Of a stretch of 64,000 bases of DNA, positions 44,914-55,806 are shown in pieces. A program made the position numbers and the translations under genes. Where the stretch lies: assembly GCF_900250075.1 (NCBI RefSeq), contig NZ_LT977070.1, positions 1,874,444 through 1,938,443 of the forward strand, in the 5' to 3' direction. The DNA comes from Cupriavidus taiwanensis. GTDB taxonomy: Bacteria > Pseudomonadota > Gammaproteobacteria > Burkholderiales > Burkholderiaceae. The notes under the pieces were generated by a model, which was not told where the DNA came from, did not search any database, and saw only the letters and a list, made by a program, of their open reading frames with translations. The stretch's first letter is position 1; every line of letters begins with the position of its first letter.

Positions 44914-47346
44914 TCAGGGGCACGCCAGCGCGGCGGCGGCATACAGCAGCAGCGCCACCAGCACCACCACGGTAAAGCCCGCGTGGATCGCCAGCAGCGT
45001 GGCCAGCACCGCCGCCACCACCGAGGCGCAGGCGTTGATGCCCCAGGCCCACGGCACCAGCTTGTCGTCGCGCGCGGCGAGGCCGGACAGCCCGAGCGGG
45101 AACGGCATCCCCATCAGGAAGGCCAGCGGCGCGATCAGTGCCACCGCAACGGCGACCCGGGCGGGATCCGGCCAGGCAATCAGCAGCGGGAACACCTCAG
45201 GCAGCGCCACCAGGTAGAGCATCGCCACGGCACACACGCCGCCGATTGCCAGCGCCACCTGGCGCCGGCCGCGCCCGGGCCCGGCGCGCGCCGGCAGGCG
45301 CGGGGCAAAGCGGCTGCCCAGCCCGGCAAAGCACAGGAACGCGCACAGCACCACCGCCACGGCATAGAGCGGATGGCTCAGGAACAGGATGAATTTCTGG
45401 ATAAAGGCGATCTCGACGAACATGAAGCCAAGGCCGACCGCGACAAAGTAGAAGCCAGTGCGCGCTACTGGCACCAGCGGCACCGATGACGCTGGCGCGC
45501 GCCGCCGCAGCACGCGCAGCGGCACGCCGATCAGCAACAACGCCGCGGCCGTGGCCTGCAGCAGCGTCGCCACCAGCACCGGATAGCCCCAGTCCAGCAA
45601 GGGCAGCCCGCCCTGCGCCTTCAGCGAGATCAGCTCCGGCAGCGTGCGCCATTTGAAGAAGTGGAAGAAGTAGGGCCGGTCGTCGGTGGCGGGCCGCACG
45701 TCGAACTTGTAGCGCGCCAGGAAGCGCTCGCGGTCGGGGCCGAGCAGCGCCTGCGCGGCGGCGTAGAAGTCTGGCTGGTCGAGCACGTTGTAGCGGTTGG
45801 CCGCGCCGGGCCGGATGCCGGGATGGTATTCGACGTCGAACGAGCGCGTGCGGCCGAAGTCGAGCAATGCGCCGATTTCCGCGGGCTGGAAGTCGCCGTG
45901 CTTGACCACCAGCGTGGCCGTCTTCCAGCCGCGCAGCAGCACCAGCCGGCGCGACGGATCGGGCACGCCCGCGCGCGCCATCGCCGCCACGGCGGTGGCG
46001 AACAGTTTCGGGATATCGCGCGGCGGCAGCGAGACCCAGCGCGTGATCGCCAGCAGGCCGCCGGGCCGCAGGTGGCGCAGGTAGGCCTCGAACGCTTCCA
46101 CGGTATAGAGGTAGCTTTCGGAGAGCGCATACAGGCCCGCCGACGAGGTGCTGAAGGAATCCAGCAGCGCCACCTGGATCAGGTCGTAGCGCTGCCGGCT
46201 GGCGGCCAGGAAGCCGCGCGCCTCGCCGACATGCACCTGCACGCCCGCCGCGCTGTACGGCTTGCCCGAGAACGCGCCGAATCGCTCCTGCACCAGCCCG
46301 ATCACCTGCGGGTTCAGCTCGACCGCATCGACCGCGCTGGCGCCGTGGTAGAGCGCCTGCAGCACGTCGGCGCCGGCACCGCTGCCCAGCACCAGCACGC
46401 GTGGCGGCGCCTGCAGCAGGTGATACGGCAGCGCAGAGGTCAGGTCGCCCAGGTAGGCCAGCGGCTCGCGCCGGCCGTCGTAGCGGTTGAGCGCGCTCAG
46501 GCCGTCGCCGTCGGTCAACACGGCAAGCTGCGGCGGCGGTTCCGCGGTGGCATTCAGGCTGAGCCCGGGCGCATGGCGCAGCGGAATCGCCGGACTCTCG
46601 ACTACCGTGATCAGCCCCAGCGGACTGGAGTGCTGCGCCACCACGCGCGCGTCGCCGATGCGCAGCAGCTGGCTCAATTCCTTGTAATCCGACGGCCGCA
46701 ACGCCATCCAGCTGCCCGGGATGGCCGCGGGTAAGGCTGCCGCCGCCAGCAGCAGCGCCGGCAGCCACGGGCGATGCCAGCGGCATTCCATGCAGGCCAG
46801 CGCCGCGGCCGCCATGCCCGTCATGCTGACCAGGCGCAGGGCGTCGATGGGGGCCAGCATGAACAGCGCGGCGATGATGCCCAGGCTACCCAGCCCGGCG
46901 CCGAGGATGTCGAAGCTGTAGAGCCGGGGTACCTGCAGCGGGAAGCGGGCAAAGGCCAGGCACACGCTGGTCGCCGCGCACAGGAAGGGCACGAACAGCA
47001 GCAGGTAGATCGCCACCAGGCGCAGCGGCTGCGTCGGTTCCCACAGGATTTCCAGCGGGTTGAAGCCGACGCGCTGCGCCAGCTCGAAGCAGGCCAGGGC
47101 GCTGATGCCGAACAGCAGCGCGCCGCCGGCAAACACCGGCACGAAATGCCGCACCAGCCCCGGCTGCGCCAGTGCCACCAGCGCCCCCGCGGCGCCGTAG
47201 CCGAGCAGCGCCACGCTGATCATCATGTAGGCGAAGTGATGCCACAGGATGATCGAAAGCAGCCGCATCAGCAGGATTTCATAACCCAGCGCGGCGGCCG
47301 AGAGCAGGGCCAGGGCAAACAGCGGCGGGCGTGGCATCGCGTTCAT
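44914..47346 (-). CDS. Large membrane protein with internal SAM-methyltransferase/spermidine-synthase-like domain
   Basis: An 810-residue protein with a different domain order from the one at 32.8 kb: about six membrane segments at the N-terminus (FALALLSAAALGYEILLMRL; YMMISVALLGYGAAGALVAL), a central Rossmann domain (RVLVLGSGAGADVLQALYHG; DAVELNPQVIGLV; YDLIQVALLDSFSTSSAGLY; LRPGGLLAITRWV), then about six more helices (FYFVAVGLGFMFVEIAFIQK). The GLGFMFVEIAFIQ motif recurs in a family of unknown function annotated as spermidine-synthase-like. Substrate unknown. It follows the methyltransferase pcm by 30 bases on the same strand. Confidence 0.8.
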   Translation of the reverse strand: MNAMPRPPLFALALLSAAALGYEILLMRLLSIILWHHFAYMMISVALLGYGAAGALVALAQPGLVRHFVPVFAGGALLFGISALACFELAQRVGFNPLEILWEPTQPLRLVAIYLLLFVPFLCAATSVCLAFARFPLQVPRLYSFDILGAGLGSLGIIAALFMLAPIDALRLVSMTGMAAAALACMECRWHRPWLPALLLAAAALPAAIPGSWMALRPSDYKELSQLLRIGDARVVAQHSSPLGLITVVESPAIPLRHAPGLSLNATAEPPPQLAVLTDGDGLSALNRYDGRREPLAYLGDLTSALPYHLLQAPPRVLVLGSGAGADVLQALYHGASAVDAVELNPQVIGLVQERFGAFSGKPYSAAGVQVHVGEARGFLAASRQRYDLIQVALLDSFSTSSAGLYALSESYLYTVEAFEAYLRHLRPGGLLAITRWVSLPPRDIPKLFATAVAAMARAGVPDPSRRLVLLRGWKTATLVVKHGDFQPAEIGALLDFGRTRSFDVEYHPGIRPGAANRYNVLDQPDFYAAAQALLGPDRERFLARYKFDVRPATDDRPYFFHFFKWRTLPELISLKAQGGLPLLDWGYPVLVATLLQATAAALLLIGVPLRVLRRRAPASSVPLVPVARTGFYFVAVGLGFMFVEIAFIQKFILFLSHPLYAVAVVLCAFLCFAGLGSRFAPRLPARAGPGRGRRQVALAIGGVCAVAMLYLVALPEVFPLLIAWPDPARVAVAVALIAPLAFLMGMPFPLGLSGLAARDDKLVPWAWGINACASVVAAVLATLLAIHAGFTVVVLVALLLYAAAALACP

Positions 47347-47376: not shown

Positions 47377-48180
47377 TCAGTGCTTGCCGACCAGCGGCAC
47401 GAAGCGCACCGGCAGGATCTGCCGGGTGCTGACGCTGCCGTCCGCGGACTTTTCGACCAGCAGCAGGTACTGCGTCAGGAACTGCGCGCCCACCGGGATC
47501 ACCATGCGCCCGCCCGGCTTGAGCTGCCGGATCAGCGGCGGCGGCACGTGGCTGGCCGCGGCGGTGACGACGATGGCGTCATAGGGGGCATGCTCGTCCC
47601 AGCCGTAGTAGCCGTCGCCCACCTTGCACGCCACCTGCCGGTAGGCCAGCCGCTGCAGGCGCTCGCAGGCCTGGCGCCCGAGCGGCTCGATGATCTCGAT
47701 GGTATAGACCGCGCGCGCCAGCTTGCTCAGCACCGCGGCCTGGTAGCCGGAGCCGGTGCCGATCTCGAGCACGCTGTCGCCCGGCTGGACCCGCAGCAGA
47801 TCGGTCATCAGCGCCACGATATACGGCTGCGAAATGGTCTGGCCATGGCCGATCGGCAGCGGCCGGTTTTCGTAGGCGTGCGGTTTCTGCGGGTCCGGCA
47901 CGAACTCATGGCGGGGCACCTGACCCATCACGGCCATCACGCCGGGGGCGATGCCGTGGCTGCGGTTGGGCACGCCGGCGCCGGCGTCGATCGCCGCAAT
48001 CTCGCTGACCATCTCCGCGCGCTGCTTCTGCCGTGCGTCGTCGGCCGCGCGGCACAATCCGGCCGATGCCATGGCGGCAACGGCGAGCAAGGCGAGCAAG
48101 GCGAGCAAGACGATAGAGGGATGACGGGCGAACGGCTGCACGATGGGACCCCCGGGGAACCTACCGTCATCGTAGGTCAT
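47377..48180 (-). CDS. pcm: Protein-L-isoaspartate O-methyltransferase with N-terminal signal/anchor
   Basis: A 267-residue enzyme. Residues ~50-267 form a complete PCMT domain: HEFVPDPQKPHAYENRPLPI, the GHGQTISQPYIVALM substrate loop, the SAM loop VLEIGTGSGYQAAVL, and VTAAASHVPPPLIRQLKPGG with RMVIPVG after it. PCMT repairs isoaspartyl residues. Before the domain lies a strong hydrophobic segment (about residues 20-45, ending CRA-ADD) typical of a Sec signal peptide, so the protein is predicted to be exported or anchored. ATG 48180 is used; a TTG at 48201 in frame is less likely. A three-copy 9-bp repeat codes the hydrophobic core. Confidence 0.87.
   Translation of the reverse strand: MTYDDGRFPGGPIVQPFARHPSIVLLALLALLAVAAMASAGLCRAADDARQKQRAEMVSEIAAIDAGAGVPNRSHGIAPGVMAVMGQVPRHEFVPDPQKPHAYENRPLPIGHGQTISQPYIVALMTDLLRVQPGDSVLEIGTGSGYQAAVLSKLARAVYTIEIIEPLGRQACERLQRLAYRQVACKVGDGYYGWDEHAPYDAIVVTAAASHVPPPLIRQLKPGGRMVIPVGAQFLTQYLLLVEKSADGSVSTRQILPVRFVPLVGKH
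48083..48109 (-). repeat. 9-bp tandem repeat coding the pcm signal-peptide core
   Basis: GCGAGCAAG occurs three times head to tail on the plus strand. Read in the pcm frame on the minus strand it codes Leu-Leu-Ala three times, inside the hydrophobic core. Gain or loss of a copy would lengthen or shorten the core by three residues without frameshift. Confidence 0.9.
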
Positions 48181-48244
48181 CGCTTGCCCCGGCGCCGGCA
48201 AGTGGCAAACGAGGCGCTTGCGGGCGCTCGGCGCCCCGGGCGGG

Positions 48245-51037
48245 CTAGCCCGCGATCAGCTTGAGTCCGGCCGGCAACGCCTCGCCGAAGACCCGTCCCT
48301 CGTCCGCGGCGTCGAGTTCGACTACCTCGCGCACCATCGCGATCCAGCCCGGCGGCGCGTTGGCGGCCTCCAGCCGGCGCACCACGTTCGCGCGCAACTC
48401 GTCGGGCAGGTCGCGGGTGCGGTCGCCGGTCATGCGTGCGATCTGCACCGCGGCGAACGCGGCCGGCTCGACCTTTTTCCAGTCGAGCGCCAGGATGGCG
48501 TCCAGCCACTGGCCGGCGGTGTCGGCCGGCACCACGCTGTGGGCGCTGCCGTAGAACGGCATGCGGGCGCCGATGCGGCCCACCGCCCACCAGCCCTGGT
48601 TGTTCTCGGAGGGTTTGCGCAGCCGGGTCAGCAGCCAGCCGGCCAGCTCGGTCTTGGCGTCGACCGGCAGGCGCTCGAGCGAGCCGGCCAGCCGGACCAT
48701 GTCGGCATAGCCGCCACGGGTGGGCCCGGCCGGCTTCTTGAAGTGCGCGCTGCCCGGCGGCTGCAGGTAGAAGGCCATGTCTTCCAGCAGGCGCAGCTGC
48801 GCGCTTTCGTCAAGCCCGCCGGCGGCGCGCCGCCACAGCGTCCACCATTCCGACCAGTTCTGGCTTTCGTTGACGTACTGGATGCCGTGGTCGTACTGCG
48901 ACCACAGCTGCGCGACGCGCCATTCGTCGAGCGGGTAGCCAAAGCCGGGGCGCACGCAATAGCCCGCCAGGTTCAGCCACAGGCGCTCATGGTCCGCGGT
49001 GCGGCGGCGGCGCCTGGCGCGTTCCCACAAGGCGCCGAACAGCTCGCGCAGCAGCGTGCTGTCCCACTGCTCGCGCGCACCCAGGATCTGCTCCAGCTGC
49101 GCACGCAGGCGCTTGACCTCCTTCGGCCCGACCTCCTGCGAGCGCGCGCCGAAGGTGCGGTCGATCAACTCCAATGCCTGCGGCAGAGACGGATGGGCCG
49201 TTGGCGCCGGCGGCGCCGGCGCGGCGTCGTTGCCGCGCAACTGGAACTCCAGGCGCCAGCGCTGCGCGGCATCGCCGGTGTTGATGCAGTGGACTTCGAG
49301 CGTGCCGACTTCGGTCAGCGACGTGGTGATCTGCACCGGCGTTTCGCGCGGGCCGCCGGCGCCGCGCGTCGGCACCACGGTGGCGATCGGCGGCAGGCGC
49401 ACGAAGTCGCCGCCGGACAGGTCGGTCAGCGCGCCGGCCCGGTAGGGCGTCTCGGCCACCGATGACACCAGGTGGAACTGCACCGGGTGGCCCAGCCGCA
49501 AGGCGAAGGTGCGGTCGCTGAGGTGGATTTCGTGGCCTTCCTCGGTGCCGCGCGGCAGCAGGCAGATCCCTTGCTGGCCGGTGGCGCCGTCGTCGAGCAC
49601 CAGGAAATAGCTGCGCGCCGAGCCGCCGCCGATGCGCGGTGCCTGGCCGGCGCGTGCGCGCGCATACGCGACCGCGCCGCGCGCCACGGCAATGTCGGGA
49701 TCGGCGTTGTGCAGCACCTGCAGCGGCGCGCCGCGCCAGCCGCCGAGCGTGTCGGCGATGCGGTCGGCCAGCGCCTGCGCGCGGAACACGCCGCCGTTGA
49801 GCAGCAGGGTGTCGGGCACCGGCAGGGCATCGACCGGCGCATCCTCCATGCCGAGCGCGGCACGGGCCTGCGCCGCGTGCTGGCCGAGGAAGGCGGCGAC
49901 GTGGCGGGTCACGGCGGGATCGGCGGCATAGGGCAGTCCGAACTCGACGATGGCGCCGCGCGCGCGCCGGGGACGTTCGCTGGCCGGCACGTTGGGGAAA
50001 AAGCCGTCGACCACCAGCTGCTCGACTTCCTGCCGCGTCAACTGCACCGAGCGCGCGCCGCCGACCAGCCGGGAACCCGCGCCCAGCAGCGTCACGTTGA
50101 CGGCATCGGGCGCGTCCGCGCCCAGCAGTTGTTCCTTGGCGGCGCGGCAGCGCGCCACCAGCTGCGACAGGCTCGCGGCCGACAGGCGCGGCTGCGCCGG
50201 CTCTGCCTTGCCCAGGCGCGCTTCGACCTGATGCGCCAGCCCCAGGTCCATGTTGTCGCCGCCGAGCATCAGATGGTTGCCCACGCCGATACGGGTCAGC
50301 TGCGGCTGCCCGTCCTGCATCGCCACGCGGATCAGCGTGAGGTCGGTGGTGCCGCCGCCGACGTCGCAGATCAGCACCAGCCGGGTTTGCGCGAGGTCCT
50401 GCTCCAGCGTGTGGCGATGGTGGAACAGCCAGTCGTAGAGCGCGGCCTGCGGCTCTTCCAGCAGCCGCAGCGCGGGCAGGCCCGCCAGGCGCGCGGCTTC
50501 CAGCGTCAGCGCGCGCGCGCCCTCGTCGAACGAGGCCGGCACGGTCAGCACCACGTCCTGCTGTTCGAGCGGCGCCTCGGGGAAGCGGTGATTCCAGGCC
50601 GCGCAGACGTAGCCGAGATAGCTGGCGCTGGCGACCACCGGCGAAATCTTGTCGAGATCCTCCTCGCCGCCCCAGGGCAGGATCGGCGCGGTGCGGTCGA
50701 CCGAGGCATGCGACAGCCAGCTCTTGGCGCTGGCCACCAGCCGGCCCGGCACCTGCGCGCCCAGCGTCGCCGCCAGGCGGCCGAACACGGTGCGGCGCGC
50801 GGCCGCGCTGGCGGCCGATTGCCAGGGCAGCTGCAGGTCATCGCCATTGAGCTCGCCCGGGGCCGCGTGGTAGCGCACCGACGGCAGCAGGGGGCGGGCC
50901 GCGACCTCGCCCGGCGCGACCAGCTGGTCGATGTCGAACACGCGGATATCGTCGGAGCCGGCCCTGGCGTAGGCCACCACCGTGTTGCTGGTGCCAAGGT
51001 CGATGCCGACGATGTATTGCTTCATCGACTGCTTCAT
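48245..51037 (-). CDS. Large Hsp70-family ATPase with C-terminal DUF3731
   Basis: A ~930-residue Hsp70 relative. The nucleotide-binding domain is recognisable: QYIVGIDLGTSNTVVAYA (phosphate 1), VVLTVPASFDEGARALTLEA, LRLLEEPQAALYDW (connect 1) and LVLICDVGGGTTDLTLIRV (phosphate 2). The adenosine motif is the divergent LLLNGGVFRAQAL. After a beta-rich region comes a helical C-terminus of about 300 residues (RLRAQLEQILGAREQWDSTL; WLNLAGYCVRPGFGYPLDEW; WWAVGRIGARMPFYGSAHS) that I recognise as DUF3731. It is the third gene of a DUF2760-Hsp70-Hsp70 operon. Starts at 51061 or 51025 are also possible. Clients and function are unknown. Confidence 0.86.
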   Translation of the reverse strand: MKQSMKQYIVGIDLGTSNTVVAYARAGSDDIRVFDIDQLVAPGEVAARPLLPSVRYHAAPGELNGDDLQLPWQSAASAAARRTVFGRLAATLGAQVPGRLVASAKSWLSHASVDRTAPILPWGGEEDLDKISPVVASASYLGYVCAAWNHRFPEAPLEQQDVVLTVPASFDEGARALTLEAARLAGLPALRLLEEPQAALYDWLFHHRHTLEQDLAQTRLVLICDVGGGTTDLTLIRVAMQDGQPQLTRIGVGNHLMLGGDNMDLGLAHQVEARLGKAEPAQPRLSAASLSQLVARCRAAKEQLLGADAPDAVNVTLLGAGSRLVGGARSVQLTRQEVEQLVVDGFFPNVPASERPRRARGAIVEFGLPYAADPAVTRHVAAFLGQHAAQARAALGMEDAPVDALPVPDTLLLNGGVFRAQALADRIADTLGGWRGAPLQVLHNADPDIAVARGAVAYARARAGQAPRIGGGSARSYFLVLDDGATGQQGICLLPRGTEEGHEIHLSDRTFALRLGHPVQFHLVSSVAETPYRAGALTDLSGGDFVRLPPIATVVPTRGAGGPRETPVQITTSLTEVGTLEVHCINTGDAAQRWRLEFQLRGNDAAPAPPAPTAHPSLPQALELIDRTFGARSQEVGPKEVKRLRAQLEQILGAREQWDSTLLRELFGALWERARRRRRTADHERLWLNLAGYCVRPGFGYPLDEWRVAQLWSQYDHGIQYVNESQNWSEWWTLWRRAAGGLDESAQLRLLEDMAFYLQPPGSAHFKKPAGPTRGGYADMVRLAGSLERLPVDAKTELAGWLLTRLRKPSENNQGWWAVGRIGARMPFYGSAHSVVPADTAGQWLDAILALDWKKVEPAAFAAVQIARMTGDRTRDLPDELRANVVRRLEAANAPPGWIAMVREVVELDAADEGRVFGEALPAGLKLIAG

Positions 51038-51053
51038 CGCCGCTGCCGCGGCT

Positions 51054-52901
51054 TCAGGCATCGGCGTTGCCGCGCACGTCGAATTGCACCTTCCAGCGTT
51101 CGCCGCTGCCACGCGGCACCGCCTCGAGCTCCAGCGTGCCGGCCTCGGTCACGCGCGCATGCAGCCTGACCGGCACCACTTCGCCGGCGGTGCGGCCTTC
51201 GGCGGGCAGCGTCGCCTGGATTTCTTCCAGTTCCTGCAGTTCCTCCGGCCCCCAGAAGTCGAGCAGGGTGCCGACCTGGTCCTGGCGCCGCACGGATGAG
51301 CCGAAGAAGCGGAAATGCACCGGTTCGCCCACCACCAGGCCGAATTCCTGCGGCGGCAGCTCGGCCTCGGTGCCTTCTTCCATGCCGAACGGGGCCACGC
51401 ACAGCGCCTGGACCGGCGGCTCGAAGCCCGGCACGGCGGGCATCGACGATTCCACCGCGACGTAGTAGGCGCGTGCGGTGCCGCCGCGGATGCGCACGCC
51501 CTTGCCGCGCCGCACATAGCCGTAATAGGCGGCGCCGCGCGCCACCGCCAGGTCCAGTTCGGCACCATCGAGCAGTCGCGCCGGGGCCGCGCCCTCGGCA
51601 GCGAGCCAGCCGTTGAGCGTCTGCAGGATGCGTTCGACCAGCAGGCCCGACTTGAACACGCCGCCGTTGAACAGCACGGCGGTGGGGCGCAGGAAGCTGG
51701 CGCCTTCCGGCTGCGCGGCCTGAAGGCCTTCGATCTCGGCCAGCGCGCCTGCTTGCCGGCCCAGGAACGCCGCCAGGTGGCGCGTGATGGCCGCGTCCTG
51801 CGCGTAGGGCAGGCCCAGCTGCGTCAGGCCGGCACGGGCCCGGGTGACCGGGCGCGCCGAGGCGGCGACTTGCGGGAAGAACCCTTCGAGGATGGTCTGG
51901 GTCAGTTCGGCGCGGGTCAGCTCGGTGCGGATCGAGCCGCCGATCAGCTTCGCGCCGCGGCTGGGCACGACCAGCGGCACGCTGTCGGTGGCCGGGTCGG
52001 TCAGCAGCGTTTCCTTGGCGGCGCGGCAGGCGTAGGTCAGCGCGCGCAGTTGCCACGGGTCGGCCTGCGTGCCCTGCGCCGCCAGCTTGCGCGCGACCAC
52101 GTGCGCCAGCGCCAGGTCCATGTTGTCGCCGCCCAGCAGGATATGGTCGCCGACCGCGATGCGGTGCAGTTCCAGGTTGCCGTCACGCTCGATCACCGCA
52201 ATCAGCGACAGGTCGGTGGTACCGCCGCCGACATCCACCACCAGGATGATGTCGCCCACCTTGACCTGCTTGCGCCATTGGCCGGCGCTTTTCTGGATCC
52301 AGCTGTAGAGCGCGGCCTGCGGCTCCTCGAGCAGGGTCATGCGGGCATAGCCGGCCGCCGCGGCGGCCTCGGCGGTGAGTTCGCGCGCGGCAGGATCGAA
52401 CGACGCGGGGATCGTCACGGTGATGTCCTGCTCGCCGAACGGCGCGTCGGGATGGGCCTGGTCCCACGCTTCGCGCAGGTGCGTCAGGTAGCGCACCGAA
52501 GCCTCCAGCGGCGATACGCGCGGCACTTCGGGCGGCGCGTCGGCGGGCAGGATCGCCGCGCGGCGGTCGACCCCGGGATGGCACAGCCAGCTCTTGGCGC
52601 TGGACACCAGCCGGATCGGCGTGCCCGCGCCACGGCTGCGCGCCATCTCGCCGACCGCGAAGTCGCGCGTGGTGCTCCAGGGCAGGTTCAGGTCGCCCGG
52701 CGCCAGTTCGCTTTCATGCGGCAGGTACAGGAACGAGGGCAGCAGGTCGAGGTCCTCGACCGCGCCGGGCGCGGTCAGCTGCGTGACCGGCAGCACGCGC
52801 TGGCTGGTCTTCTCGCCATCGCTGGCGGCCAGGTCGACGTAGGAGACCGCGCTGTGGGTGGTGCCCAGGTCGATGCCGATTGCATAGCGGGCCTCGCTCA
52901 T
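51054..52901 (-). CDS. Hsp70-family ATPase of the DUF2760 operon
   Basis: A 615-residue Hsp70 relative: YAIGIDLGTTHSAVSYVDLA (phosphate 1), ITVTIPASFDPAARELTAEA, MTLLEEPQAALYSWIQKSAG, ILVVDVGGGTTDLSLIAV (phosphate 2), and AVLFNGGVFKSGLLVERI in place of the usual VGGSTR-type adenosine motif. The C-terminal part is beta-rich (EFGLVVGEPVHFRFFGSS; VRLHARVTEAGTLELEAVP) and lacks the usual helical lid of DnaK. DnaJ and GrpE genes are absent nearby. Starts with ATG overlapping the DUF2760 stop by four bases; the larger Hsp70 follows directly. Confidence 0.9.
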   Translation of the reverse strand: MSEARYAIGIDLGTTHSAVSYVDLAASDGEKTSQRVLPVTQLTAPGAVEDLDLLPSFLYLPHESELAPGDLNLPWSTTRDFAVGEMARSRGAGTPIRLVSSAKSWLCHPGVDRRAAILPADAPPEVPRVSPLEASVRYLTHLREAWDQAHPDAPFGEQDITVTIPASFDPAARELTAEAAAAAGYARMTLLEEPQAALYSWIQKSAGQWRKQVKVGDIILVVDVGGGTTDLSLIAVIERDGNLELHRIAVGDHILLGGDNMDLALAHVVARKLAAQGTQADPWQLRALTYACRAAKETLLTDPATDSVPLVVPSRGAKLIGGSIRTELTRAELTQTILEGFFPQVAASARPVTRARAGLTQLGLPYAQDAAITRHLAAFLGRQAGALAEIEGLQAAQPEGASFLRPTAVLFNGGVFKSGLLVERILQTLNGWLAAEGAAPARLLDGAELDLAVARGAAYYGYVRRGKGVRIRGGTARAYYVAVESSMPAVPGFEPPVQALCVAPFGMEEGTEAELPPQEFGLVVGEPVHFRFFGSSVRRQDQVGTLLDFWGPEELQELEEIQATLPAEGRTAGEVVPVRLHARVTEAGTLELEAVPRGSGERWKVQFDVRGNADA

Positions 52902-53476
52902 AGCTCCACCTCGGCGGGGGCGATCACGCTGGCGTCGTGGCGCTCGGCCAGGCGCGGCAGGCGCACGTCTTCGACCTTCCAGCCGCGATGGCTGATGGCG
53001 CCGTGGAAGGGTGCGGTGCCCACCACGTTGCCGGTCAGGCGGATCGCGCTGGCGTCGAAGCCGTCGGCCAGCGTCACGCGGGTGCCCTCGGCTTCCTCGC
53101 GCACCGGGCGGATGGTGAAATGCTCGCGCAGCACCGCCCGGCAGCCATCGTGCACCAGGCGCGCGGCGGCGCCAATCTCGGCGTCGGCATAGCGCGCGAT
53201 GTCTTCCTCGACGAAGTCGACGAAGCGGGCATCGCGCTGCAGCAGTCCGAGCAATTGCAGCGCGGCCACCGGACTGGCTTCCTTCAGCGCCGGCGCAGGC
53301 TCGGCAACCGGCGCCGGGGCGGGTGCCGCCACCGGGGCCGCGGCCGCCTGCGCGGCGGGCTCGCCTGCGCGCAGGCGCTTGATGCCGGCGGCCAGCTCGC
53401 GGTTGCCAAGGATCGCGAAGAAGGTGCCCATGGCAAGCGAGAGCCTGCCAAAGAAAGAGAGGTTCGGGTCAGGCAT
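52898..53476 (-). CDS. DUF2760 protein
   Basis: A 192-residue protein. The N-terminus (MPDPNLSFFGRLSLAMGTFF) is followed by a Pro/Ala-rich linker near residues 40-65 and the DUF2760 core (AALQLLGLLQRDARFVDFVE; EDIARYADAEIGAAARLVHD; RLTGNVVGTAPFHGAISHRG). GAGGAG lies 8 bases upstream of ATG 53476, preferred over an in-frame GTG at 53485. It is the first gene of the operon and overlaps the first Hsp70 by four bases. Its constant pairing with these Hsp70s suggests a co-chaperone or client, which is inference. Confidence 0.87.
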   Translation of the reverse strand: MPDPNLSFFGRLSLAMGTFFAILGNRELAAGIKRLRAGEPAAQAAAAPVAAPAPAPVAEPAPALKEASPVAALQLLGLLQRDARFVDFVEEDIARYADAEIGAAARLVHDGCRAVLREHFTIRPVREEAEGTRVTLADGFDASAIRLTGNVVGTAPFHGAISHRGWKVEDVRLPRLAERHDASVIAPAEVEL

Positions 53477-53513: not shown

Positions 53514-55478
<1,965 letters not shown>

Positions 55479-55806
55479 TGACTGCTGTTTCCTTCGTGCA
55501 TCGCGTGTCGACGGCAGTGCGCACGAGGGCGCGCGTAATTCCAACCTGCTGTCAAGGCTCGCGTGGGGTTCGGCGGGGGCGGGGCGGATAACCGTTGGCC
55601 GCGGCCGTTTGAATAGGGGCCGCATATTCTACAGCCATTGCTGCGTCGCAGCAGGTTCCGGGCCCGGAATGCGTGGCGGCTAGTCTGCCGGAATGCGTGG
55701 TATTTGCAACAGGATGGGCCGAAAAGCGCGGCAGAAGCCGCTGCCATGGCGGAAATTGCGAGAAATTCCGCACCGGCCGCCGCGCTACGGCCGGCCAAGT
55801 GCCGCC
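55479..55806 (-). promoter_or_regulatory. 328-bp gap upstream of the RpoD-like gene with -10 box and direct repeats
   Basis: No gene is seen. Reading the minus strand, TAGAAT (plus-strand ATTCTA, 55626-55631) is a five-of-six -10 box, which would put the start near 55619 with a leader of about 140 bases. Upstream of it are two exact copies of a 13-bp element (CCGGAATGCGTGG on the plus strand) at 55664-55676 and 55688-55700, 24 bases apart, centred near -51 and -75. That position suits an activator. The -35 (CTGCTG-like) is poor, which also fits an activated promoter. Confidence 0.4.

Follow-up and report, generated by a model that had tools for sequence, protein, structure and literature searches.

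Locus Organization

We analyzed a stretch of 64,000 nucleotides from Cupriavidus taiwanensis (contig NZ_LT977070.1, positions 1,874,444 to 1,938,443), hereafter the window, in which three consecutive minus-strand genes encode a DUF2760 protein and two Hsp70-type proteins, here named HspA and HspB (Table 1). HspA is predicted to consist of a nucleotide-binding domain (NBD) and the beta part of the substrate-binding domain (SBD-beta), and HspB would add a helical DUF3731 tail to the same two domains. Our overall reading, to which we give a probability of about 0.45, is that this trio forms one dedicated chaperone machine, in which DUF2760 would be both the membrane tether and the dedicated cofactor and HspA and HspB would work as a pair independently of J-proteins.

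The genes are packed as tightly as the first-pass annotation had described, with a four-base overlap between DUF2760 and HspA and a gap of 16 bases separating the HspA stop (51054) from the HspB ATG (51037). DUF2760 is preceded by a Shine-Dalgarno-like GAGGAG. Because near relatives (e.g., locus L084) show an 8-base overlap of HspA and HspB, translation of HspB may instead start at the in-frame ATG at 51061, with which the window genes would overlap by 8 bases as well. Considering that the only minus-strand terminator-like site between 44500 and 56000 lies at 45454-45472, within a spermidine-synthase-like gene (44914-47346), a longer transcript running from the upstream RpoD copy through the trio is conceivable. 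Neither a J domain nor GrpE was found within the window, in agreement with the earlier remark that no DnaJ or GrpE is encoded nearby.

Table 1. Features of the trio locus in window coordinates.
Feature	Position	Strand	Basis and remarks
DUF2760 protein, 192 residues	52898..53476	-	PF10816, 183.6 bits, E 1.5e-54; start at 53476
HspA, predicted lidless Hsp70 (NBD + SBD-beta), 615 residues	51054..52901	-	PF00012, 63.3 bits; alignments
HspB, predicted Hsp70 (NBD + SBD-beta) with DUF3731 tail, 930 residues	48245..51037	-	PF00012, 71.2 bits; PF12531, 365.1 bits
Helical DUF3731 domain, occupying the DnaK lid position	48257..48997	-	PF12531 on residues 682-928, frame from 51040
ATGA shared by the DUF2760 stop and the HspA start	52898..52901	-	4 bases
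DUF2760 predicted N-terminal helices, residues 6-36, weakly hydrophobic/amphipathic	53369..53461	-	model helices 8-22 and 26-36
DUF2760 conserved C-terminal tail, residues 185-192, IAPAEVEL	52901..52924	-	tail pattern across loci
RpoD-type sigma factor, second genome copy	53514..55625	-	NCBIfam RpoD, 816.5 bits; 37 bases upstream of the trio
Protein-L-isoaspartate methyltransferase	47377..48201	-	PF01135, 217.2 bits; at least 43 bases downstream of the trio

Co-Inheritance of the Three Genes

In a sample of 398 genomes from 212 genera of the phylum, DUF2760 was present in 28 genomes (11 genera) and DUF3731 in 27. All 27 fall among the 28 with DUF2760, so the association of the three genes is not due to chance. 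An HspA profile, scored on the best three candidates per genome, matched exactly the same 28 genomes at E 1e-60 or better, and among the matches listed at this threshold there were no other Hsp70s, all being HspA or, by position, HspB. In the single DUF2760 genome lacking DUF3731 (G026), HspA lies 82 bases from the contig start. DUF2760 and DUF3731 share one contig and one strand in 26 of the 27 genomes and lie on different contigs in the other (G053). The order DUF2760-HspA-HspB was kept in all 20 loci fetched from this sample.

A scan of species genomes gave at least 572 loci, of which the best 80, mostly from Burkholderiales, were examined. Species carrying the locus include Cupriavidus necator (L085) and Paraburkholderia xenovorans LB400 (L119). 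DUF2760 adjoins HspA in all 80; an apparent reversal of the two genes in four loci is an artefact of over-extended starts. An HspB match was present in 78, some of them clipped by the contig end. As for the other two, the contig of L115 stops inside HspA and hence lacks an HspB match, and in Comamonas testosteroni (L141) HspB is not nearby, the genome carrying DUF3731 elsewhere (contig C1). At L068, porin-like and antiporter-like genes (named by reading) sit between HspA and HspB, and in Candidatus Paraburkholderia calva (L133, 6845-12191) HspA is fragmented. By the chosen starts, the ATGA overlap (-4) recurs in 85/103 loci, and the gap between HspA and HspB is at most 100 bases in 93/100.

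Patristic distances of the three proteins correlate pairwise over 95 loci and the window (r 0.989, 0.962 and 0.968; computed without an unlinked-gene control). The proposed three-gene unit is confirmed as one inherited unit. The genes are rarely found apart, the displaced HspB of Comamonas and a Candidatus Thiodictyon plasmid record carrying DUF2760-HspA without HspB being the exceptions.

Sequence and Predicted Fold of HspA and HspB

HspA and HspB align with each other over residues 2-612 and 5-604, respectively, at 41% identity (BLASTP), and each is about 24% identical to the DnaK of its own genome, over the NBD only. Both miss the NCBIfam DnaK/HscA cut-offs by a wide distance (HspB best 92.9 against 620; HspA 80.3 against 708.55), and the same genome further holds two DnaK-like genes and one HscA-like gene, named by reading. 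Judged by their sequences, HspA and HspB are two unlike Hsp70s, neither of them a DnaK. Together with co-inheritance, this supports the first-pass view of two unlike Hsp70s with a dedicated small protein.

On the one hand, the ATP site is conserved. As had been noted for the window proteins, phosphate loops 1 and 2 are intact and the adenosine motif reads NGG, in place of the VGG of DnaK, in 101/101 HspA and 97/97 HspB sequences. The same alignments show no variation at D8, K70 and E171 or at the loop 2 Asp and Thr. Both NBDs thus retain every catalytic residue checked. On the other hand, the residues that we take to be the J-domain docking residues of DnaK (R167, N170 and T173) are changed. 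The N170 equivalent is Glu in all 198 sequences, and the T173 equivalent is Gln in 194 (99/101 HspA and 95/97 HspB). The R167 equivalent is kept in 2/101 HspA and 77/97 HspB. The interdomain linker DVLLLD of DnaK was not found in the five HspA and five HspB rows inspected, and the window HspA carries GVRIRGGTAR at the linker position.

HspA terminates at the end of the region equivalent to the SBD-beta of HspB and accordingly lacks the SBD-alpha lid. The sequence thus predicts an NBD and SBD-beta fold for HspA, and the model of HspB (predicted local distance difference test, pLDDT, 82.3) points to the same fold followed by helices at residues 618-917. These helices lie in the DUF3731 region, whose PF12531 score far exceeds the gathering cut-off of 25, and agree with the helical tail of about 300 residues described earlier. 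The HspB model aligns with DnaK and BiP from about residue 7 to about residue 600 in the VIA alignments. Because one exceptional row (7kru_A) reaches HspB residue 927 and the Foldseek rows with DnaK extend over 750 columns, a remote kinship of the DUF3731 helices with the DnaK lid is conceivable from the model. The claim that there is no DnaK-like lid stands for HspA; for HspB, where DUF3731 occupies that place, it has to be softened.

Conserved Tail and Putative Membrane Segments of DUF2760

PF10816 spans DUF2760 residues 71-191 (gathering cut-off 25) and was the sole Pfam match at E up to 0.1; the Pfam J domain (PF00226) had no match in this protein. By the curated cut-offs the window proteins are members of PF10816 and PF12531, two families annotated as having unknown function or being "DNA-K related". 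To these families the present analysis adds the three-part unit, the C-terminal tail and the membrane segments.

DUF2760 is probably attached to the membrane, as suggested by its N-terminal region in two lineages. In L073, L076, L077 and L078, one predicted transmembrane segment (hydropathy 1.9-2.15) is followed by charged VEK repeats, with no Lys or Arg ahead of the segment and four to five behind it. Because of this charge distribution, we infer that the DUF2760 domain would be cytosolic in this lineage. Two hydrophobic stretches occur in L079-L083 (best hydropathy 2.5-3.0) and in L164 (2.89). The Burkholderiales proteins have an amphipathic or weakly hydrophobic helix and a Pro/Ala-rich linker.

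The C-terminal tail A-x-A-[EQ]-[VI]-E-[LVI] was present in all but one of 103 loci (102), and the one without it is the degraded L133. Nine tail-bearing loci have, by the chosen starts, a gap of more than three bases before hspA; two of them (L138 and L141) lose the gap with an earlier start and L088 is broken, leaving six with a clear gap (L079-L083 and L164). In these six, gene overlap cannot explain the tail. The DUF2760 model has a pLDDT of 71.5 overall and below 50 in the tail, which suits a partner-binding linear motif, although a poor model would look identical.

Neighboring Genes and Plasmid Copies

The upstream RpoD copy carries Pfam regions 1.1 to 4 and shows 60% identity to the genome's other RpoD. 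In a sample of 60 genomes of the genus, where the copy was called at 74% identity or more, DUF2760 is present in 34 genomes and the RpoD copy in 35. All 34 have both, adjacent in 29 and unlinked in 5, and among the 26 genomes without the trio only G418 has the copy. A tree of the other RpoD from 54 genomes implies that the state of the trio changed twice; G415, which has neither the trio nor the RpoD copy, accounts for one of these changes. Since the association rests on about two phylogenetic events, the link is suggestive, and the RpoD copy may share an operon with the trio in this clade alone.

The protein-L-isoaspartate methyltransferase downstream of the trio (47377-48201) has a hydrophobic N-terminal stretch and may be exported; the same gene directly follows the trio in the near relatives L064 and L084. 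In one lineage (L075, 5404-7314; L074, 5128-7110), the gene directly upstream of DUF2760 encodes an ABC ATPase with two domains, which resembles ABC-F in its Pfam matches. Among 72,556 plasmid records, 11 gave a match. The trio stands beside trb and tra genes on a conjugative Bradyrhizobium plasmid of 110 kb (L180, 6402-11811), and on a Bradyrhizobium plasmid (L164, 11872-13916) groES and groEL follow about 1 kb downstream of it. The DUF2760-HspA pair of the Thiodictyon plasmid (L165, 7327-9845) is located near genes annotated as anti-phage.

Proposed Machine and Alternative Explanations

In the machine that we propose, DUF2760 would be anchored in the inner membrane with its C-terminal domain and tail in the cytosol. 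The tail would hold the lidless HspA, probably through the SBD-beta of HspA, and HspA and HspB would act as an ATP-driven Hsp70-Hsp70 pair. The DUF3731 domain of HspB would substitute for the lid and handle the client, and DUF2760 would substitute for a J-protein. The heteromeric chaperone suggested in the first-pass annotation is thus supported as far as a co-inherited unit of two unlike Hsp70s and a dedicated partner is concerned; the physical HspA-HspB-DUF2760 complex is putative. An extended version, in which the tail acts as a pseudo-substrate (AxAEVEL) docking HspA in a J-protein-free, membrane-tethered machine, HspB with its DUF3731 cap works on the client at the inner membrane and an RpoD-type sigma factor of its own was recruited in one betaproteobacterial clade, seems rather unlikely as a whole.

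Several observations weigh against this proposal. HspB often keeps the R167 equivalent, so some J-protein contact may persist in it. The Thiodictyon record lacks HspB, the Comamonas HspB is displaced, and the tree-distance correlation was made without an unlinked-gene control. In Burkholderiales, the window included, the N-terminal helix of DUF2760 is weakly hydrophobic (the window protein peaks at a hydropathy of 1.49 over 19 residues), which makes the membrane tether less certain there. Also, the moderate DUF2760 model gave no meaningful fold match.

The proposed machine resembles known systems in part. Its logic is that of the yeast ribosome-associated complex (Ssz1-Zuotin-Ssb), in which an Hsp70 that lacks a lid has its own partner peptide and works with a second Hsp70, and Ssz1 chains are among the Foldseek matches of HspB (ranks 48-50). 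However, because no J domain was found in DUF2760, the trio is not a member of that complex; it is also bacterial, with an apparent membrane link, and HspA keeps its catalytic residues, whereas Ssz1 is not known to have ATPase activity. In layout, DUF2760 is analogous to DjlA-type membrane J-proteins, which have an N-terminal transmembrane segment and a cytosolic domain engaging Hsp70, but it has no J domain and its dedicated Hsp70s are encoded in its own operon.

The likeness to an Hsp110-Hsp70 pair, in which two dissimilar Hsp70s also come together and one of them has a larger C-terminal part, leads to the alternative that survives best. Here HspB would be mainly a nucleotide-exchange factor (and holdase) of HspA, and DUF2760 only a client recruiter or a client. 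The trio differs from such a pair in its single operon, its small and probably membrane-bound protein and its DUF3731 tail. Moreover, HspB retains every catalytic residue checked, and its structural matches are no closer to Hsp110 than to DnaK or BiP. We consider this explanation unlikely.

We regard as slightly less probable again that the trio serves general stress or heat-shock responses as a chaperone that overlaps DnaK in function and is controlled by a sigma-32-type or dedicated sigma factor. A CTTGA(A/T)-N14/15-CCC-type element precedes DUF2760 in 8/9 genomes of one lineage within the same class (seven with at most two mismatches and one with three), and a similar element precedes dnaK in 9/10 dnaK loci of that lineage. 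The groESL genes after the trio on the Bradyrhizobium plasmid and the extra RpoD copy ahead of it in the window's clade would also fit. However, the element shows hardly any enrichment when all 103 upstream regions are taken together (two or fewer mismatches in 6, against 3.7 expected from shuffles), the window lacks it (best 4 mismatches), and the CTTGA-type stretch can equally be read as an extended -10 promoter. The RpoD association, as described above, reflects about two events. An accessory, mobile or defence-related module is very improbable: the tra/trb and anti-phage neighbors, the patchy distribution and the low-scoring PADLOC matches that both Hsp70s give to PDC-M61B, a candidate family (18.2 and 26.1 bits, about 95 residues), speak for it, but those matches are confined to part of the ATPase domain and do not include DUF2760, neither DUF2760 nor HspA had a match in 50,697 phage records, and within the genus the trio follows clade inheritance.

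The canonical Hsp70 cycle depends on J-proteins and a hydrophobic linker. The HspA-HspB pair keeps the ATPase site without the hydrophobic linker and the usual J-docking residues, and its partner is dedicated and probably membrane-bound. If the proposed machine is correct, it could represent another way of running Hsp70 and would assign a role to both DUF2760 and DUF3731, whose functions are so far undescribed in Pfam.
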